From NCBI RefSeq assembly GCF_016745395.1, contig NZ_JAERVJ010000001.1:620001-684000 (forward strand): DNA of 64,000 nucleotides, read 5' to 3'. Shown piece by piece: positions 28,534 to 34,735 of the stretch. Below the pieces are notes generated by a model, which worked only from the letters and a program-made list of their open reading frames with translations, did no database searches and was not told the origin of the DNA. Numbering within the stretch: the first letter of the stretch is position 1; each line of letters opens with the position of its first letter. Position numbers and translations under genes: made by a program. This DNA comes from Methylocystis sp. Sn-Cys (GTDB taxonomy: Bacteria > Pseudomonadota > Alphaproteobacteria > Rhizobiales > Beijerinckiaceae).

Positions 28534-29877
28534 TCACGCCAGCGCGTCGCGCAGCAGCAGCGCAATGTGCCGCGCCTTTCGGCCGCTGCCGTGCTCGATC
28601 TGATGGCGGCAGGAGAAGCCGTTGGCGATCAGCGGCGTGTCTTCCGCGGAGGCGCGCACCGCCGGCAGCAGGGATTGCTCGGCCATCGCCATCGAGGCCT
28701 CGTAATGCTCGGCCTCCAGGCCAAAGCTGCCCGCCATTCCGCAGCAGCTCGAATCGATCACCTCAAAGGAAAAGCCCGGTATCCAGCTCAGGACCTTGCG
28801 CGTCGCCTTCATCACGCCGAAGGCCTTCTGGTGGCAATGGCCGTGCAGCAGCGCCTTGGGCAAATTCAGCGGTTTCAGCTCCAGGCGCAGGCCGTTGTTT
28901 TGATGCTCGCGCGCCAGAAACTCCTCGAAGAGGAAAAGCTGCTTGCCCAGGTCGCCGACCTCGGGGCCGAGCCCGAGGCTGTAAAGCTCGTCGCGTAACG
29001 ACAGAAGGCAGGACGGCTCCAGCCCGATGATCGGCGTCTTGGCCGCGATGGCGTCGCGGAAGGCGGCGAGAACGCGGCTAGCTTCACCCTTCGCCTTATC
29101 CGCCATGCCGGTCGTGAGATAGGTGCGCCCGCAACAGAGCGGCCGGTTCGGCTCGGCGTCAGTTGGCGCGGGCTTGGCGAAGCGCACGCTGTAGCCGGCG
29201 CGTTCCAGGACGGCGACGGCGGCCTCGGCGATCTCGGGGTCGAAGTGGTGGCAGAAAGTGTCGACGAAGAGAATGACGTCGCCGCGCGCACCAGCGCTTG
29301 CCTCTTTGGCGGGAGCGAAGGGTTTCGCCGCCAGCTCCGGAAGCGGGCGGCGCGCCGTAATACCGAGCCGTCTTTCCGCAAATTTGGCGAGCGCCGAGAA
29401 ACGATTTCGCAGGCGAATCGCGAGGCCCAGCACAGCGCGATGCCGGCCGGTCCATTCTGGCACGCCGCCGAAGAGCCGCGTGCGTATCGGAACCCCGGTG
29501 ATCGCATGACGCTGGGCGAGATATTCCGTCTTGATCAGCGTCATATCGACGGCGCTGGGACATTCCTTTTTGCAGGCCTTGCAGGAGACGCACAGATCCA
29601 TCGCCTCAGCGAGGCGCGGATCGGCGAAGGCGCGCGCGTTGGCGGGGTCGTTGAGGGCGGCCTTGAAGGCCGCGACGCGCGCTTCGGTGGAATGCTTTGG
29701 GTCGCCGGTGATGCGGTAGCTCGGGCACATAACGCCCTTGCCGGCTTTCTGACAATCGCGGCTGTGCATGCACACAGCGACAGCCTTGGCGTAATTGCCG
29801 CCCGTGGCCGGAATGCCCGAATAGGCGTCGCCAATGCCGTAGGTGTCGTAAGCCGACCAATCGAGAAAGGTTTTCAT
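28534..29877 (-). CDS. Orphan (Fe-S)-binding/cysteine-rich CCG domain oxidoreductase subunit
   Basis: The 447-residue protein has two 4Fe-4S motifs. The first is a spaced set, CMHSRDC...VMCPSYRITGDPKHST; the second is CVSCKACKKECPS. Two cysteine-rich CCG domains follow (PLCCGRTYLTTG and DSSCCGMAGSFG). This arrangement matches the C-terminal half of YdiJ-like D-2-hydroxyacid dehydrogenases, but the N-terminal FAD domain is missing. The gene lies downstream of the FA2H-like and DEGS-like genes on the same strand. Whether it passes electrons to them or is a separate or truncated enzyme cannot be told from sequence. Confidence 0.75.
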   Translation of the reverse strand: MKTFLDWSAYDTYGIGDAYSGIPATGGNYAKAVAVCMHSRDCQKAGKGVMCPSYRITGDPKHSTEARVAAFKAALNDPANARAFADPRLAEAMDLCVSCKACKKECPSAVDMTLIKTEYLAQRHAITGVPIRTRLFGGVPEWTGRHRAVLGLAIRLRNRFSALAKFAERRLGITARRPLPELAAKPFAPAKEASAGARGDVILFVDTFCHHFDPEIAEAAVAVLERAGYSVRFAKPAPTDAEPNRPLCCGRTYLTTGMADKAKGEASRVLAAFRDAIAAKTPIIGLEPSCLLSLRDELYSLGLGPEVGDLGKQLFLFEEFLAREHQNNGLRLELKPLNLPKALLHGHCHQKAFGVMKATRKVLSWIPGFSFEVIDSSCCGMAGSFGLEAEHYEASMAMAEQSLLPAVRASAEDTPLIANGFSCRHQIEHGSGRKARHIALLLRDALA

Positions 29878-29946
29878 GCCGGGTCCATTTCCGGCGGGGA
29901 AAAGCAAAATCGGGGCCGAAGCGGGCGACGGCGAAACCCGCAAGAG

Positions 29947-30003
29947 CGTTACTTTGGCTCTAGGTTCCCGGTCGGGCTTTCAGCCCGCCGGGAATGACAC
30001 GCC
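29947..30003. repeat. Partial arm of the composite repeat
   Basis: GTTCCCGGTCGGGCT and AGCCCGCCGGGAATGACAC form a hairpin preceded by CAAGAGCGTTACTTTGGCTC. This is the outer arm seen in copy A without the REP core. Confidence 0.7.
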
Positions 30004-30025
30004 CCTGAGCGCGTTATTCAAAGGC

Positions 30026-30673
30026 TCAAACGGCCTTGGTACCCGGCGTCTCGCCCTTCTGATAGGCCGTGCCGAAGACATAGTCCCACCAGATCGCGTG
30101 CACGCCGAAGCCTTTTTCGGCGTCGCGGAAATGGTGGAGCATATGCAGACGCTTCACCAATTTGCCTAAGTCGGAGGTCGGCTGGCCGTGATGCGTCCAG
30201 TAATGCACGCAGTCATAGGCCACATAGCCGGCCATGAAGCCTGCGAGCACCGGCCAGGCGAAAGTCGCGCCGAAGATCAGCCGGATGATCGTCAGCGCGA
30301 TGAGCATGATCGGCGCGGACAGCAGCGGCGGCATCACGAGCCGCAGCGGGTCGCTCGGATAGATGTGATGCACGCCGTGGATCAGGAACTGGAAGCGCGG
30401 CCCGAAGCCGAAGGGGAGGGGAAACACCGTGTGGAAGAGATAGCGGTGGCCGAAATATTCGGTCAGCGTCCAGGCGACATAGCCGATGACGAGGCCGAGC
30501 AAAACGAGCCCGGCGCCCTGCAGCGAGAGGGAGTAGAAGAGCAGGCCCAGAATGATCGGCGTGTAGATGATCACGGGCGTGAGGTGATGCACGCGCGAGA
30601 AACGATCGAGAAGGTCGTTCTCGAAAATGCGCGGCGAGGCGTCCAGCGCTTCTGTGCGTGTGTCCTGCGTCAT
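30026..30673 (-). CDS. Fatty acid 2-hydroxylase (FA2H/Scs7)-like membrane di-iron enzyme
   Basis: The 215-residue protein has four membrane spans and the histidine motifs of the fatty acid hydroxylase superfamily: HRYLFH (76-81), HGVHH (99-103), HYWTHH (157-162) and HMLHH (177-181), plus the end motif GFGVHAIWWDYVFGT. The opening IFENDLLDRFSRVHHLTPVIIYTPI and the EYFGHRYLFH context match the eukaryotic FA2H and yeast Scs7 hydroxylase domain, which 2-hydroxylates the N-acyl chain of ceramide. It starts 4 bases after the desaturase stop, so the two are surely one operon. The substrate is inferred. Confidence 0.85.
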   Translation of the reverse strand: MTQDTRTEALDASPRIFENDLLDRFSRVHHLTPVIIYTPIILGLLFYSLSLQGAGLVLLGLVIGYVAWTLTEYFGHRYLFHTVFPLPFGFGPRFQFLIHGVHHIYPSDPLRLVMPPLLSAPIMLIALTIIRLIFGATFAWPVLAGFMAGYVAYDCVHYWTHHGQPTSDLGKLVKRLHMLHHFRDAEKGFGVHAIWWDYVFGTAYQKGETPGTKAV

Positions 30674-30677
30674 GATT

Positions 30678-31664
30678 TTACTCCGCCGGGGCAGCGATGT
30701 GCTGCGCCGCTTGCGTGACATTTACCGACCGCGTGCCGAGCGAATAGGTCGGATCGAAGATGAAGGTGACAAGCAGCGCGAACCAGGAACGATGGCAGCG
30801 CAGCGTGTCGTAGAACTCCGGCGCCATGGCCGTGAGCTCCGGCAGGCGGTTCCACGGTATCTCGTGAAAGTCGTGGTGCTCGTTGTGATAGCCGATATTG
30901 AGCGCGAGCTTATTGAGCGGCCCGTAGTAATCGAACGTGCCCTGATCGGGCCCGAAGGCGAAATGCTCCTGCAGCCAGCGCGCGCTCAACGGATGCAGCC
31001 CGCCCACCGAAAACCAGAAGGACAGGAAGAGATAGAGCAAAGCGTTGGGGCCGAAGGCCCAGAGCATGAAGAGATCGAAGGCGATGATGACCGCGATATT
31101 GATATAGGTCCACTTGCCCATGATCGGCACGGTGCCCTTCAGCCGCGACAGACGCGCGAGCTGGATGGCGGGAAAGGCGAAAAGCCAGGCAGCCTTGCGC
31201 CATGCGCTATTGCCGACCCACTCCACTTCCCACTGGCTCGGAATGTCGGCGTCATAGTCATAGGCCGAAAGATGCGAATGGTGCTTGATGTGATAGCAGC
31301 GGAAGCCCATCGCCGTGGGGAAGCCATTGGGCAGATCGGCAAGGATCGCCGTCCATTTATTGGCGAGCGGGTCCTCGAAGACACAATTGTGAATCGCGTC
31401 GTGGATGATGACGAAATTCGCGTGATTGGCGAAGGCGCCGACGCAAATGGCCAGCAGCAGCGACAGCCACCAATAGGAGAGGCCAAGCCAGCCCAAAACG
31501 GCCGCGATCACAAATTGGCCGACGAAGATGCCGGCCGTGATCTTGAAGGTCACCGGGTCTCTGCCGAAAAGCTCGCGCACCTGCGGATATTTTTCCAGGA
31601 TGAGGCGGCGGCGCTCGACATGCGAGCGGTCGGCGCCCTGGGCGGTGACCGAAATGCCGTTCAT
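30678..31664 (-). CDS. Sphingolipid delta-4 desaturase (DEGS)-like fatty acid desaturase
   Basis: The 328-residue integral membrane protein has three histidine boxes: HDAIH (88-92), HIKHH (125-129) and NEHHDF (261-266). The N-terminal ERRRLILEKYPQVRELFG and the C-terminal NEHHDFHEIPWNRLPELTAMAPEFYDTL resemble the dihydroceramide desaturase DEGS family rather than common acyl-lipid desaturases. DEGS enzymes add a 4,5 double bond or a C4 hydroxyl to the sphingoid base. A repeat element separates it from the upstream GNAT-like gene, and the FA2H-like gene follows directly. The DEGS-like function is inferred from these motifs and from context. Confidence 0.85.
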   Translation of the reverse strand: MNGISVTAQGADRSHVERRRLILEKYPQVRELFGRDPVTFKITAGIFVGQFVIAAVLGWLGLSYWWLSLLLAICVGAFANHANFVIIHDAIHNCVFEDPLANKWTAILADLPNGFPTAMGFRCYHIKHHSHLSAYDYDADIPSQWEVEWVGNSAWRKAAWLFAFPAIQLARLSRLKGTVPIMGKWTYINIAVIIAFDLFMLWAFGPNALLYLFLSFWFSVGGLHPLSARWLQEHFAFGPDQGTFDYYGPLNKLALNIGYHNEHHDFHEIPWNRLPELTAMAPEFYDTLRCHRSWFALLVTFIFDPTYSLGTRSVNVTQAAQHIAAPAE

Positions 31665-31717
31665 GGATCACGTTTCCTTCAGTTGGAAGCGGAGCAATCG
31701 GGTGAATAGTACCTGGC

Positions 31718-31880
31718 GTCGTTAGCCCTCCAATACCTCCCCTTTACGGGGAGGTCGGCGGCCAAAGGCCGCCGGGTGGGGTTCACGCCGCAATGACTCT
31801 GATGGGGCTTAACCCCACCCGACCCCGCTTGCGCGGGGCCACCCTCCCCGTAAAGGGGAGGGATTGGTAGCTCACGCCCG
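31718..31880. repeat. Repeat family 3, copy 2 (inverted relative to copy 1)
   Basis: The same elements as at 25922-26080 run in the reverse order, from GGCGTC..GTTAG and CCTCCCCTTTACGGGGAGG through CGGCGGCC/GGCCGCCG to CCTCCCCGTAAAGGGGAGG and GAGCTACC. It sits in the gap between the GNAT-like and desaturase genes. Confidence 0.9.
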
Positions 31881-31903
31881 ACATTCCCCGACTGGACCTG
31901 AAC

Positions 31904-33046
31904 TCAACCGATACGCTTCTCGTAAATCCGGTGAACCTTGTCGATCTTGCCGCCGAACATTTCGATCGGCTTGCGCATCGCCATATTGTCTTCGAGCACC
32001 CAGCCCGCCTCCATATGGGTGATAGAAGCCTTGGCGCCGCGGCGGCGCATTTCCTCAATCATGGAGAGCAGAATGGCGCCGCCCGTCGCGCTGTTTTGCA
32101 GCGCCTTGCGGGTGCCGAGCAGCACAATGCGCGCAGTGTTGAACTTGTGGTTGCGCATGCGCGAGATCAGCTTCGGCAGGCCGAAGGGGAACAAGCGGCC
32201 GTCGAAGTCGGAGACGATCTCGAAGAGATTGGGGAGCGCGACCAGGAAGCTCACCGGCGCGCCGTCGAGCTCGACCATGATACCGAATTCCGGCGGCATG
32301 ACATACTTAAGCGCGTCGGCGGTGGAATCGAATTCCGCCTTGGTGAAGGGCACGAAGCCCCAGTTATCGCGCCAGCCGTCGTTGAAGAGCTCCTCCATCA
32401 GCGCCGTCTCGGTCGTCTTCAGATTGTCGAGATCGAGCGGGCGGAGCTTCAAACGGTCTCGCCATTCCTTGCGGTTCGAGATGAGGGGCTTTTCGTTGAG
32501 GAAAGTCTCGTCGATGGCGATGCGATAGGAGACGAGGTCCTTGGCCTTCTCATAGCCGAGCGCCGCGAGATGGCGCGAGAGATAGGGCGGATGCCAGGGC
32601 GTGAGGAACATAGGCGTCGCCTCGAAGCCCTCGATCAGCATGCCGAGTTCGCCATTGATGCTCGGCGAGAAGGGGCCGTTGATCCGCGTCGCGCCTTTCG
32701 CCTTCAGCCAATTCTCCGCGGCCTCGACTAGCGCGCGCACGATTTCCGGATCGTCGACAGCGTCGAGCGAACCGAACTGCGCCGGGCTCGCGGCGACGGG
32801 CGTGATCCCGTCCTTATAGACATGCGCGGCAATGCGGCCGACCCATTCGCCGTCGCGGCGGGCGAGGAATTTCTGTTCCTCGACCAGCTTGTAATGGGGG
32901 TTGAGCATATGGGCGAACATCGCCCAGCGCTCGATGTCGAGCGGCGGCGCGAAACCCGGCGCGCCCTTGTAGAGAAGGCGCGGCAGCTTGCAGAAAGTCG
33001 TGAACGTCGAGAGCCCAGCGACCGGTACGATCTCGATTCGCGCCAT
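31904..33046 (-). CDS. GNAT-like protein of the type linked to bacterial ceramide synthase (bCerS-like)
   Basis: The 380-residue soluble protein has a split GNAT-like layout. The first half includes FTTFCKLPRLLYKGAPGFAPPL, the strand EEQKFLARRDGEWVGRIAAHV and INGPFSPSINGELGMLIEGFEATP. The second half includes PVSFLVALPNLFEI. From memory, similar proteins sit beside serine palmitoyltransferase genes in bacteria such as Caulobacter, where one was shown to act as ceramide synthase (bCerS). The gene follows the SPT-like gene by 66 bases on the same strand. The assignment is by family feel and neighbourhood, so it remains tentative. Confidence 0.6.
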   Translation of the reverse strand: MARIEIVPVAGLSTFTTFCKLPRLLYKGAPGFAPPLDIERWAMFAHMLNPHYKLVEEQKFLARRDGEWVGRIAAHVYKDGITPVAASPAQFGSLDAVDDPEIVRALVEAAENWLKAKGATRINGPFSPSINGELGMLIEGFEATPMFLTPWHPPYLSRHLAALGYEKAKDLVSYRIAIDETFLNEKPLISNRKEWRDRLKLRPLDLDNLKTTETALMEELFNDGWRDNWGFVPFTKAEFDSTADALKYVMPPEFGIMVELDGAPVSFLVALPNLFEIVSDFDGRLFPFGLPKLISRMRNHKFNTARIVLLGTRKALQNSATGGAILLSMIEEMRRRGAKASITHMEAGWVLEDNMAMRKPIEMFGGKIDKVHRIYEKRIG

Positions 33047-33112
33047 GCTGAATCCTTATGCCTTTGCGGGGGAACGCGGAAAGCGTCATGATGACGCGCC
33101 CGTGCTGTCGTA

Positions 33113-34357
33113 TCAGGCGGCGGCGCCGGACATGGCGGCGGCGACGATGCGCTGCGCCTCCTCCGACACGGGCGGCATGTCGCGCAACGCCTGGATGACG
33201 CCGCGGATTTCCGCCTCCGTATGGTTCGCCGAAAAGAAGAAGCGCAGGCGCGGTCCGTCCTTGGGCACGCCGATGCGCACGACGGGCGGCACATAATAGC
33301 CCTTCTCGAGCAGATGCCGCGCCGCCCACATCGTTTCGAGATCGTTTTCGAAGAGGATCGGCACCACGCCGCGGCCGATCGCCGGGCCCGTGGAGAAGCC
33401 GTTTTCATGCGCGACCTGGCGGAAAAGCTCGGCGTTCTGCGCCAGCTTGCCGATGCGCCAGGTCTCTTCCTGCATCAGCCGCAGGGCGGTGCGCGCCGCC
33501 GCGAGAACGACCGGCGAGAAACCGACGCTATAAACGAAACCCGGCAGCGTGTAGCGGAACCACTCGATCACTTCCTTCCTGGCGCAAATATAGCCGCCGC
33601 AGGAGGCGAGCGATTTGGAGAGCGTGCCGATGATGAGGTCGATGCGCTGCGGATCGACGCCCTGATGCTCCGCAAGCCCGCGGCCATGGTCGCCCAGAAC
33701 GCCGAGCGAATGGGCTTCGTCGACCATCAGCCAGATTTGATACTTGTCCTTGATCTCATAGAGGCGCGGCAGATCGGCGGTGTCGCCGTCCATGCTGTAG
33801 ACGCCTTCGACCACGACGAGCACATTGCGATATTCCTCGCGATGGCGCGCCAGCAGATGGTCGAGATGGTCCATGTCGTTGTGTCGGAATTTGACGACAT
33901 GGGCCGGGGCGCCCTCCGCGCCATAGACGATGCTGTTATGGGCAAGCTCGTCGATGAAGATCGCGTCGCGCTTGCCGTTCATCAGATAGGAAATGGTGGT
34001 GACGTTCGAGAGATAGCCGGAGACGAGCGCCAGCGCGCTCTCCATGCCGATGAATTCGGCGATCTCCGCCTCGAACTGCTTATGCGTGGTGCGTTCGCCG
34101 CCCACGAGCCGCGAGGCGAGCGCCCCGACGCCGAGCCCGTCGACCTCGCGCTTGGCCTCCTCGCGGATGCGCGGGTGATTGGCGAGGCCGAGATAGTCGT
34201 AATTCGCGAAGCTGACGAAATGCGTCCCCTGCGCTTCGAAGTCCGCCTTGAGCTTGTCGATCTGCGCGAAGAAGGGGTTGTTGAACTCGAGCAGGGCGTT
34301 GCCCGCGAAGCGGAATCTCCGCGAGGCATAGTCGGGGAGGCTTCTGTGTTTCGTCAC
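33113..34357 (-). CDS. Serine palmitoyltransferase-like alpha-oxoamine synthase
   Basis: The PLP enzyme of 414 residues (from the GTG at 34357; 435 from a TTG at 34420) has the alpha-oxoamine synthase pattern. The substrate loop is NYDYLGLANHP, DEAHSLGVLGDHGRG holds the PLP-binding aspartate, and the Schiff-base lysine is Lys248 in GTLSKSLASCGGYI. Related enzymes are serine palmitoyltransferase, KBL, BioF and HemA. The neighbouring DEGS-like and FA2H-like genes argue for SPT, which condenses serine with an acyl thioester to start sphingolipid synthesis. No biotin or haem genes adjoin it. Confidence 0.75.
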   Translation of the reverse strand: MTKHRSLPDYASRRFRFAGNALLEFNNPFFAQIDKLKADFEAQGTHFVSFANYDYLGLANHPRIREEAKREVDGLGVGALASRLVGGERTTHKQFEAEIAEFIGMESALALVSGYLSNVTTISYLMNGKRDAIFIDELAHNSIVYGAEGAPAHVVKFRHNDMDHLDHLLARHREEYRNVLVVVEGVYSMDGDTADLPRLYEIKDKYQIWLMVDEAHSLGVLGDHGRGLAEHQGVDPQRIDLIIGTLSKSLASCGGYICARKEVIEWFRYTLPGFVYSVGFSPVVLAAARTALRLMQEETWRIGKLAQNAELFRQVAHENGFSTGPAIGRGVVPILFENDLETMWAARHLLEKGYYVPPVVRIGVPKDGPRLRFFFSANHTEAEIRGVIQALRDMPPVSEEAQRIVAAAMSGAAA

Positions 34358-34735
34358 TGAATTCGCAGTCCCTGAATGGCCGGGCGCGGCCGCGCGCGCT
34401 TGCTTTTCCCGAAGAATCAAGGCGCCCTGAGCCGTTAGGGCGCCTGGAGGCTGATCGGGTCCCTTAGCACCCTCCTCGCCCTCGCGCCAGTGCGCCTGCG
34501 CTCAGGGCAGGCGGGCAGGGAGGCGTGATTTCTTCTCCTTCATCCTGAGGAGGCCTCGAAGAGGCCGTCTCGAAGGACGAGGGAGAGGAAATCACGTTGC
34601 AGTGCGGGCTTCCTCGCCCTTCGAGACGCCGCCTGCAGCGGCTCCTCAGGGTGAGGAAGCCCTTGCCCCAATCGCTCGCGAAAGCGCGAGCGCGCCTATG
34701 GCGCTTGCGCCCGGCTTTCTCTATTGGCTTTCAAC
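34358..34735. repeat. Gap with family 4-type repeats (main part 34538-34655)
   Basis: The gap between the divergent SPT-like gene and ccmA contains TTCATCCTGAGGAGGCC, GTCTCGAAGGACGAGG, CCTTCGAGACGCCGCC and GGCTCCTCAGGGTGAGG in order. These are the words of family 4. No gene is supported in these 378 bases. Confidence 0.75.

Follow-up and report, generated by a model that had tools for sequence, protein, structure and literature searches.

The stretch of Methylocystis sp. Sn-Cys DNA considered here (64,000 nucleotides of contig NZ_JAERVJ010000001.1, positions 620,001 to 684,000; hereafter "the window") carries four genes that, together with a block of partner genes elsewhere in the same genome, appear to encode a route to desaturated, probably 2-hydroxylated ceramide; we put the probability of this reading at roughly three in four. 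Ceramide is a lipid characteristic of animals, fungi, and plants. The unit consists of four genes, encoding an alpha-oxoamine synthase (AOS), an N-acyltransferase of the bCerS family, a DEGS-like membrane desaturase (DES), and an Scs7/FA2H-like hydroxylase (FA2H). The proposal is based on family membership as judged by sequence, on catalytic motifs, on gene linkage, and on the finding that AasR and CerR, two proteins of the ceramide route of Caulobacter and Escherichia coli B, have no orthologue here; the substrates, the positions modified, the order of the steps and the role of the partner block are what we infer from these.

Bacterial ceramide, bCerS, AOS enzymes linked to polyketide synthases (PKS), and a hydroxylated ceramide of Caulobacter are already in print (for the last, PMC11324152). 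In searches of open-access PMC papers, read as listings, no description was recognised of a bacterial row that joins an AOS or a serine palmitoyltransferase (SPT) to bCerS, DEGS, and FA2H homologues. Should the reading hold, eukaryote-like ceramides would be made by soil Verrucomicrobia as well as by type II methanotrophs and other Beijerinckiaceae. This would matter for the value of sphingosine-type lipids as markers of eukaryotes in soils and sediments, for the understanding of methanotroph membranes, and for views on the source of eukaryotic DEGS and FA2H.

Cluster Architecture and Conservation

The five open reading frames (ORFs) proposed in a sequence-only reading of this DNA were all found in place and on the same strand (Table 1). 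The same holds for the histidine boxes of the desaturase (HDAIH 88, HIKHH 125, NEHHDF 261), the histidine motifs of the hydroxylase (HRYLFH, HGVHH, HYWTHH, HMLHH), and the pyridoxal phosphate lysine of the synthase (residue 269, within GTLSKS). Gaps of 66 bp and 239 bp separate AOS from bCerS and bCerS from DES, respectively, and FA2H begins 4 bp beyond the DES stop if the ATG at 30673 is taken as its start, yielding a protein of 215 amino acids (aa), the length found in 8 of 17 ORFs of the genus. The cluster is flanked by ccmAB and ligA, and no type I PKS adjoins it.

Table 1. Positions of the cluster genes, an adjoining gene, and the partner block (window coordinates unless a contig is named).
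Feature	Position	Strand	Remarks
AOS, SPT-like; putative sphingoid-base forming step	33113..34420	-	TTG start listed; GTG at 34357 as alternative
bCerS-family N-acyltransferase (GNAT)	31904..33046	-	full-length homologue of E. coli BL21 YghO
DEGS-like membrane desaturase (DES)	30678..31664	-	Lipid_DES + FA_desaturase, three His boxes
Scs7/FA2H-like hydroxylase (FA2H)	30026..30673	-	without cytochrome b5 domain; ORF opens at 30721
Fe-S oxidoreductase half, GlpC-like	28534-29943	-	Fer4/CCG (Pfam); without conserved link to the cluster
Partner block: carrier protein (ACP), ketoacyl synthase (KS), unknown, dehydratase, SDR, glycosyltransferase	G000:C8:731006-736682 (= L295:5007-10683)		window genome, outside the window

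Within the genus, the desaturase is present in 35 of 36 genomes (the exception, G023, is 89% complete), and the order AOS, bCerS, DES, FA2H is kept in each of the 17 loci that were fetched among the 35 with a desaturase match. In a scan of a DES alignment over 84,980 species genomes, at least 549 relatives were confirmed. The locus counts given below rest on the best 80 of these, a sample biased to the closest relatives, which divides by rank into 37 Beijerinckiaceae-type loci (L149–L185, from genomes named Methylocystis, Methylosinus, Methylocapsa, Methylocella, Methylovirgula, and Beijerinckia and from alphaproteobacterial metagenome-assembled genomes) and 43 other loci (L186–L228); at least five of the former are the same stretches as five of the 17 genus loci. 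The trio of AOS, bCerS, and DES occurs in 35 of the 37 Beijerinckiaceae-type loci, 21 of them with AOS, bCerS, and FA2H and 14 with AOS and bCerS; in the remaining two (L162, L181), DES lies at a contig end. Since the gene order is kept throughout the genus loci and the trio in 35 of 37 Beijerinckiaceae-type loci, the mutual linkage of the four genes, as the sequence-only reading had it, is more than chance.

A fifth member, the Fe-S oxidoreductase half, had been counted to the cluster in that reading and has been removed from it; this gene adjoins the cluster in one of the 17 genus loci only, and its GlpC-like match is below the NCBIfam cut-off. Horizontal transfer was considered on the basis of base composition, which showed nothing striking (core 62.1% GC, window 65.2%). 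No plasmid-borne copy of DES was seen in the genome collection searched, and 15 pattern matches to viral DES relatives yielded no confirmed one. Among 385 sampled alphaproteobacterial genomes, DES matches above 250 bits were confined to the window genome and G401. The 24 genomes of other genera in the same order added one more, G055, whose desaturase neighbours are a HlyD-type protein, a CoA-ligase-type protein and a third protein without a Pfam match.

The N-Acyltransferase and the Canonical Ceramide Route

The proposed bCerS membership of the N-acyltransferase is borne out by 37% identity over 377 aa to YghO of E. coli BL21 (E 8e-86), next to a weak GNAT match (Acetyltransf_1 2.5e-4, Pfam). 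In E. coli BL21, yghO adjoins aasR, epi, acpR, and spt; it corresponds to the N-acyltransferase gene aca, which is listed together with spt, acpR, aasR, and epi (PMC9386255). The window protein is, thus, a full-length homologue of a known bCerS, and linkage of bCerS to an AOS is seen in 35 of the 37 Beijerinckiaceae-type loci. Relatives of bCerS are present in 41 of 289 sampled alphaproteobacterial genomes, including that of the window, and the PDB holds no relatives of it by sequence.

A bCerS-family N-acyltransferase adjoining an AOS is what the window has in common with the route of Caulobacter and E. coli B, which involves SPT, AcpR, AasR, bCerS, and CerR. In other respects the two differ: the window AOS is 33% identical to E. 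coli SPT (44–55% for canonical alphaproteobacterial SPTs, the extremes being partial matches), orthologue-level AasR and CerR are lacking, DES and FA2H are added, and the acyl carrier protein (ACP) is a different one, encoded in a separate block.

AasR and CerR were searched over 16 genomes, with a clean split for CerR and a clear one for AasR. The genomes with canonical SPT loci (G126, G183, G191, G219) and G401 gave 465–519 bits for AasR and 153–210 bits for CerR, against 287–310 and 45–64 bits in the six Methylocystis-genus genomes. The corresponding values were 312 and 51 for Methylosinus, 251 and 47 for Methylocapsa, 51 and 58 for Beijerinckia, 45 and 59 for Methylocella, and 60 and 26 for a Verrucomicrobium. 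Hence, neither protein has an orthologue-level match in the ten Beijerinckiaceae genomes searched. The Methylocystis matches to AasR near 300 bits share ~33–37% identity and lie in open frames of ~960 codons, and the one in the window genome is a fatty-acyl-AMP ligase (NCBIfam). An AcpR homologue was not found in the window, the AcpR search having covered the window and the fetched loci. The earlier statement that CerR and a dedicated ACP are not nearby, therefore, stands in part: homologues of CerR and AcpR were not found in the window, but a carrier protein is encoded in the partner block ~77 kb off. If true, this would be a bacterial ceramide route without CerR; in the published Black Sea survey, the pathway was defined by CerR along with Spt and bCerS, and the main text contains no words starting with "desatur" or "hydroxylase" (PMC11334938).

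In G401, DES, bCerS, and an FA_hydroxylase share one locus, and AasR and CerR are encoded elsewhere in the genome. This combination of AasR and CerR with a separate FA_hydroxylase–bCerS–DES locus supports ceramide as the substrate of the modifiers.

The Predicted Modifying Enzymes

DES matches FA_desaturase (1.4e-23) and Lipid_DES (2.2e-9), the latter representing the N-terminus of sphingolipid delta-4 desaturases, both over the Pfam cut-off. Among 15 genomes, Lipid_DES exceeded its cut-off in the 9 that were previously known to carry DES and in none of six bCerS-bearing alphaproteobacteria without DES (G099, G227, G126, G183, G191, G219), and in none of 14 controls. Together with the three histidine boxes, this upholds the DEGS-like assignment, by profile and motif rather than by comparison with eukaryotic DEGS. 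The predicted structure model of DES has a mean pLDDT of 81.7, and the PDB contains no sequence relatives of the protein.

FA2H is an FA_hydroxylase (PF04116, 2.3e-15) with a single domain in an ORF of 231 aa. Its PDB sequence matches are yeast Scs7 chains only (4e-23), with all eleven motif histidines identical, so that its description as Scs7/FA2H-like can be retained. The cytochrome b5 domain that is fused to human and yeast FA2H/Scs7 was not detected in it by Pfam. The likeness to the eukaryotic modifiers, thus, comprises the Lipid_DES domain, the histidine boxes, and the Scs7 histidine set, whereas the bacterial hydroxylase is free of cytochrome b5 and the genes stand in one operon-like row.

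The hydroxylase of Verrucomicrobia matches yeast Scs7 at 7e-33 and shares its side of a 100/100 branch with the window FA2H, apart from other alphaproteobacterial hydroxylases. FA_hydroxylase genes beside bCerS in other alphaproteobacteria form a separate group and, hence, give no direct support for the window FA2H; one tested matches Scs7 more weakly (4e-13). Such genes were observed in 8 of 18 fetched alphaproteobacterial bCerS loci and at the DES locus of G401 (L118, L120–L122, L126–L128, L131, and L136, the last being that of G401).

Should the DEGS-like enzyme hydroxylate (at C4) or desaturate elsewhere, and the FA_hydroxylase act on the base, a phytoceramide-like lipid would result; this variant, which is compatible with the proposed route, is rather unlikely. 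Both enzyme families do include differing regiospecificities, as exemplified by DEGS2, which acts as a C4 hydroxylase, and by Sur2. On the other hand, the PDB matches of the hydroxylase are all Scs7 chains, a comparison in which a Sur2-type enzyme is not separable, no such structure having been matched. The variant gains from Caulobacter CC_0202, a DesA-family protein for which hydroxylation of the amide-linked acyl chain has been reported (PMC11324152). This ceramide hydroxylase resembles the proposed FA2H activity as a case of bacterial oxidation of a ceramide acyl chain; however, it is encoded away from the spt region (PMC11324152), while the window hydroxylase is of the PF04116 type and lies inside the cluster.

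The Synthase

The AOS is an Aminotran_1_2 protein (9.6e-48, Pfam) with intact catalytic motifs. In a tree of 54 AOS, from which seven duplicate cluster AOS had been left out, the cluster AOS came out as a separate clade (100/100), distinct from Kbl, BioF, HemA, and canonical SPT. For a second tree, six plasmid-borne AOS were added and seven BioF-, KBL-, or HemA-like rows were left out. It contains a 20-row clade at 100/100 that comprises 11 cluster AOS, five PKS-linked AOS (Sinorhizobium meliloti, Shinella, Streptomyces, Caballeronia, Pseudomonas), the AOS of Acidisoma, and three further ones (Methylocella, Beijerinckia, G219). Annotation gives PKS linkage for three of the five; in the other two, Pfam recognised the PKS in the gene upstream of the AOS (S. 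meliloti) or fused to it (Streptomyces). PfSgaB itself is outside the tree set. In neither tree does the synthase fall with BioF or KBL, a placement that the sequence-only reading had named as speaking against it. Identity with canonical SPT was rejected as well, considering the separate 100/100 clades and 29–33% identity. On the phylogenetic evidence, the AOS is, thus, neither a canonical SPT nor a BioF, KBL, or HemA, and joins the PKS-linked AOS of the sgaAB arrangement.

This arrangement—a PKS followed by an AOS, with a KDSR-like SDR in the same cluster—has been described for Pseudomonas fluorescens MYb115, where PfSgaB, a published serine palmitoyltransferase, condenses L-serine with acyl-CoA and strongly prefers L-serine (PMC12134224). 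The membership of the window AOS in the 100/100 clade of PKS-linked AOS is one point of likeness to sgaAB; in contrast, no PKS is adjacent in the window and bCerS, DES, and FA2H are present. The view of the cluster as the SPT and bCerS route of Caulobacter extended by two genes is not supported, given an AOS of the PKS-linked clade and the lack of orthologue-level matches for AasR and CerR.

In the first tree, the Verrucomicrobia AOS is the sister of the Beijerinckiaceae AOS (91/89); after addition of the PKS-linked AOS it is placed elsewhere, with weak support (81/17). Because of this shift, no common origin is claimed for the two.

Two further synthase loci were encountered. Methylocella has a second AOS–bCerS pair beyond the DES cluster (L268:3651-6100), the AOS of which groups with the PKS-linked AOS. 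In the window genome, contig C17 carries, beside an adenylation-domain ORF, a second AOS with a carrier domain fused to its N-terminus (L229:8790-12562); this is probably a small natural-product locus.

The Partner Block

The block comprises six genes, for a PP-binding carrier protein, a ketoacyl synthase resembling FabF, a small protein that Pfam does not match, a dehydratase of the MaoC/HadB type, an SDR (G000:C8:733463-734257 in the window genome), and a glycosyltransferase of family 2 that has a cellulose-synthase-like and a weak Glyco_transf_21 (GT21-like) match. They occur together in all five genomes of which the SDR region was fetched (the window genome, G007, Methylocella, Methylocapsa, and Beijerinckia). 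Of the 37 Beijerinckiaceae-type loci, 13 contain at least four of the six (L160, from a Methylocystis metagenome-assembled genome, L165–L167, L174–L179, L181, L182, and L185), and in a comparison of 21 loci, up to 9 had block genes next to the cluster. The window genome's SDR is by far the best match to an SDR on an Acidisoma plasmid (131 bits; next, 53), and the AOS of that plasmid is 52% identical to the window AOS. Furthermore, an SDR 43% identical to that of the window genome adjoins the second AOS–bCerS pair of G219.

In the block, separate proteins provide the catalytic functions found in the PKS that supplies related AOS; the block's discrete ACP, ketoacyl synthase, dehydratase, and SDR correspond to functions also seen as PKS domains, and we therefore infer that it supplies the acyl chain. 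By analogy, it would be the dissociated counterpart of an sgaA-type PKS, feeding the AOS. Chain supply is its likely role, perhaps together with one in head group formation, and its SDR may be a chain ketoreductase, a 3-ketosphinganine reductase, or both.

Two gene neighbourhoods may be mentioned here. On the Acidisoma plasmid (NZ_CP126995.1, L281:3089-7134), an FA_hydroxylase, the AOS, and the SDR are encoded on one strand with a divergent bCerS, making up a ceramide-like set. In G401, relatives of two block proteins, the ketoacyl synthase (41%) and the glycosyltransferase (32%), are encoded near the FA_hydroxylase–bCerS–DES locus (L136:865-5924).

An alternative is that the product of this AOS clade is a specialised lipid that anchors capsule or some other polysaccharide, with bCerS, DES, and FA2H tailoring the anchor and not bulk membrane ceramide. 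It draws on plasmids of S. meliloti, Shinella, Caballeronia, and Pseudomonas, where PKS–AOS pairs of the same 100/100 clade have genes for capsule or polysaccharide export in their vicinity, on a capsular gene near the Acidisoma cluster, and on the cellulose-synthase-like and GT21-like matches of the block's glycosyltransferase. However, no conserved PKS or capsule gene was found beside the Beijerinckiaceae cluster (21 loci compared, queried from five), and SgaB of the PKS–AOS pair yields sphinganines and phosphoglycerol sphingolipids (PMC12134224). We regard such an anchor, which would still be a sphingolipid, as improbable.

Proposed Route and Opposing Evidence

In the ceramide route proposed here, the ACP, ketoacyl synthase, HadB/MaoC-type dehydratase, and SDR of the partner block would build or extend an acyl chain on a dedicated carrier protein. 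The AOS would condense this carrier-borne chain with L-serine, and the resulting 3-keto sphingoid base would be N-acylated by the bCerS homologue, followed by reduction of the 3-keto group by a ketoreductase, perhaps the block's SDR. Acylation before reduction has been proposed for Caulobacter, as cited in PMC9386255, and the same order would apply to Methylocystis by analogy. The DEGS-like enzyme would add a double bond to the base, most likely delta-4, the Scs7/FA2H-like enzyme would hydroxylate the N-acyl chain, most likely at C-2, and the block's glycosyltransferase may add a sugar.

Several observations weigh against this route. The AOS exceeds no curated SPT cut-off (NCBIfam bioF 340 bits, SPT 293 bits, all below cut-off); a PDB search with it ranked a bacterial SPT (214 bits) barely above KBL (208 bits); and in three approximately unbiased tests, one clade of cluster AOS and other SPTs was not rejected (p 0.20–0.28). 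In the window genome, the partner block stands apart from the cluster, at a distance of ~77 kb, and the family of the block's SDR is generic. Judged by its sequence, the Methylocystis fatty-acyl-AMP ligase (35% and up to 310 bits to AasR) may serve in an AasR-like role. Finally, 15 of the 37 Beijerinckiaceae-type loci lack FA2H (one of them, L181, being cut upstream), and 15 of the 43 other DES loci (Bacteroidota, Proteobacteria) are without linked ceramide genes in the flank examined.

The position of the AOS below every SPT cut-off, in combination with its ~28–34% identity to every named AOS family, would also suit an enzyme that uses alanine, glycine, or cysteate and not serine, leading to a 1-deoxyceramide or a sulfonolipid-like product. 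This is decidedly improbable in view of the clade shared with PKS-linked AOS and the published preference of SgaB for L-serine (PMC12134224). Moreover, at a column occupied by serine in canonical SPT and by threonine in HemA, the AOS has serine, though BioF shares this serine. A further alternative, that the modifiers are mere neighbours of AOS and bCerS and have other lipids as substrates (phospholipid acyl chains, hopanoids, lipid A), could be suggested by the missing FA2H and unlinked DES genes within the flanks examined. It is very improbable, since the linkage is found in two different gene orders and in Verrucomicrobiota/Acidobacteriota as well as Pseudomonadota, and DES is linked with bCerS in G401.

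Related Gene Rows in Other Phyla

The 43 other loci are distributed over Verrucomicrobia or Acidobacteria (28), Bacteroidota (12), and Proteobacteria (3, two of them named Phreatobacter). In 17 of them (16 Verrucomicrobia, 1 Acidobacteria), a complete row of DES, FA2H, AOS, a CDP-alcohol phosphotransferase, and bCerS is encoded on one strand, its Pfam identities having been verified on L192 (9767-15295). Another 10 loci show the first part of this row and then the contig end, and in L225, DES, AOS, and bCerS are present but spread out. The row has the same four functions as the window cluster and an FA2H on the same side of the 100/100 branch as the window's; it differs in gene order, in an AOS that forms its own clade, and in the extra head-group transferase.

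Tentatively, and with somewhat less than an even chance in our estimation, the argument may be taken further. True ceramide, carrying a delta-4 unsaturated base and a 2-hydroxylated acyl chain, would then be a product of at least two phyla, encoded in complete rows that combine bCerS, DEGS, and FA2H with AOS from two separate clades. In Beijerinckiaceae, discrete enzymes, as a dissociated sgaA, would grow the base on a dedicated carrier, the product perhaps being a glycosylceramide; and the eukaryote-type modifications would represent a bacterial kit that is old or has been freely exchanged.

The row at L192:9767-15295 and the 16 like loci resemble a phosphosphingolipid operon, and their CDP-alcohol transferase bears a weak resemblance to phosphatidylinositol-phosphate synthases. 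The soil Verrucomicrobia include loci of Candidatus Udaeobacter. The DEGS-like desaturases without linked ceramide genes in the flank examined, from Bacteroidota and Phreatobacter-like Proteobacteria, are those of L186, L188, L195, L201, L203, L206–L208, L212, L215, L219, L220, L223, L224, and L227; three of the genomes with unlinked DES (G445, G456, G457) carry an SPT-type AOS elsewhere.

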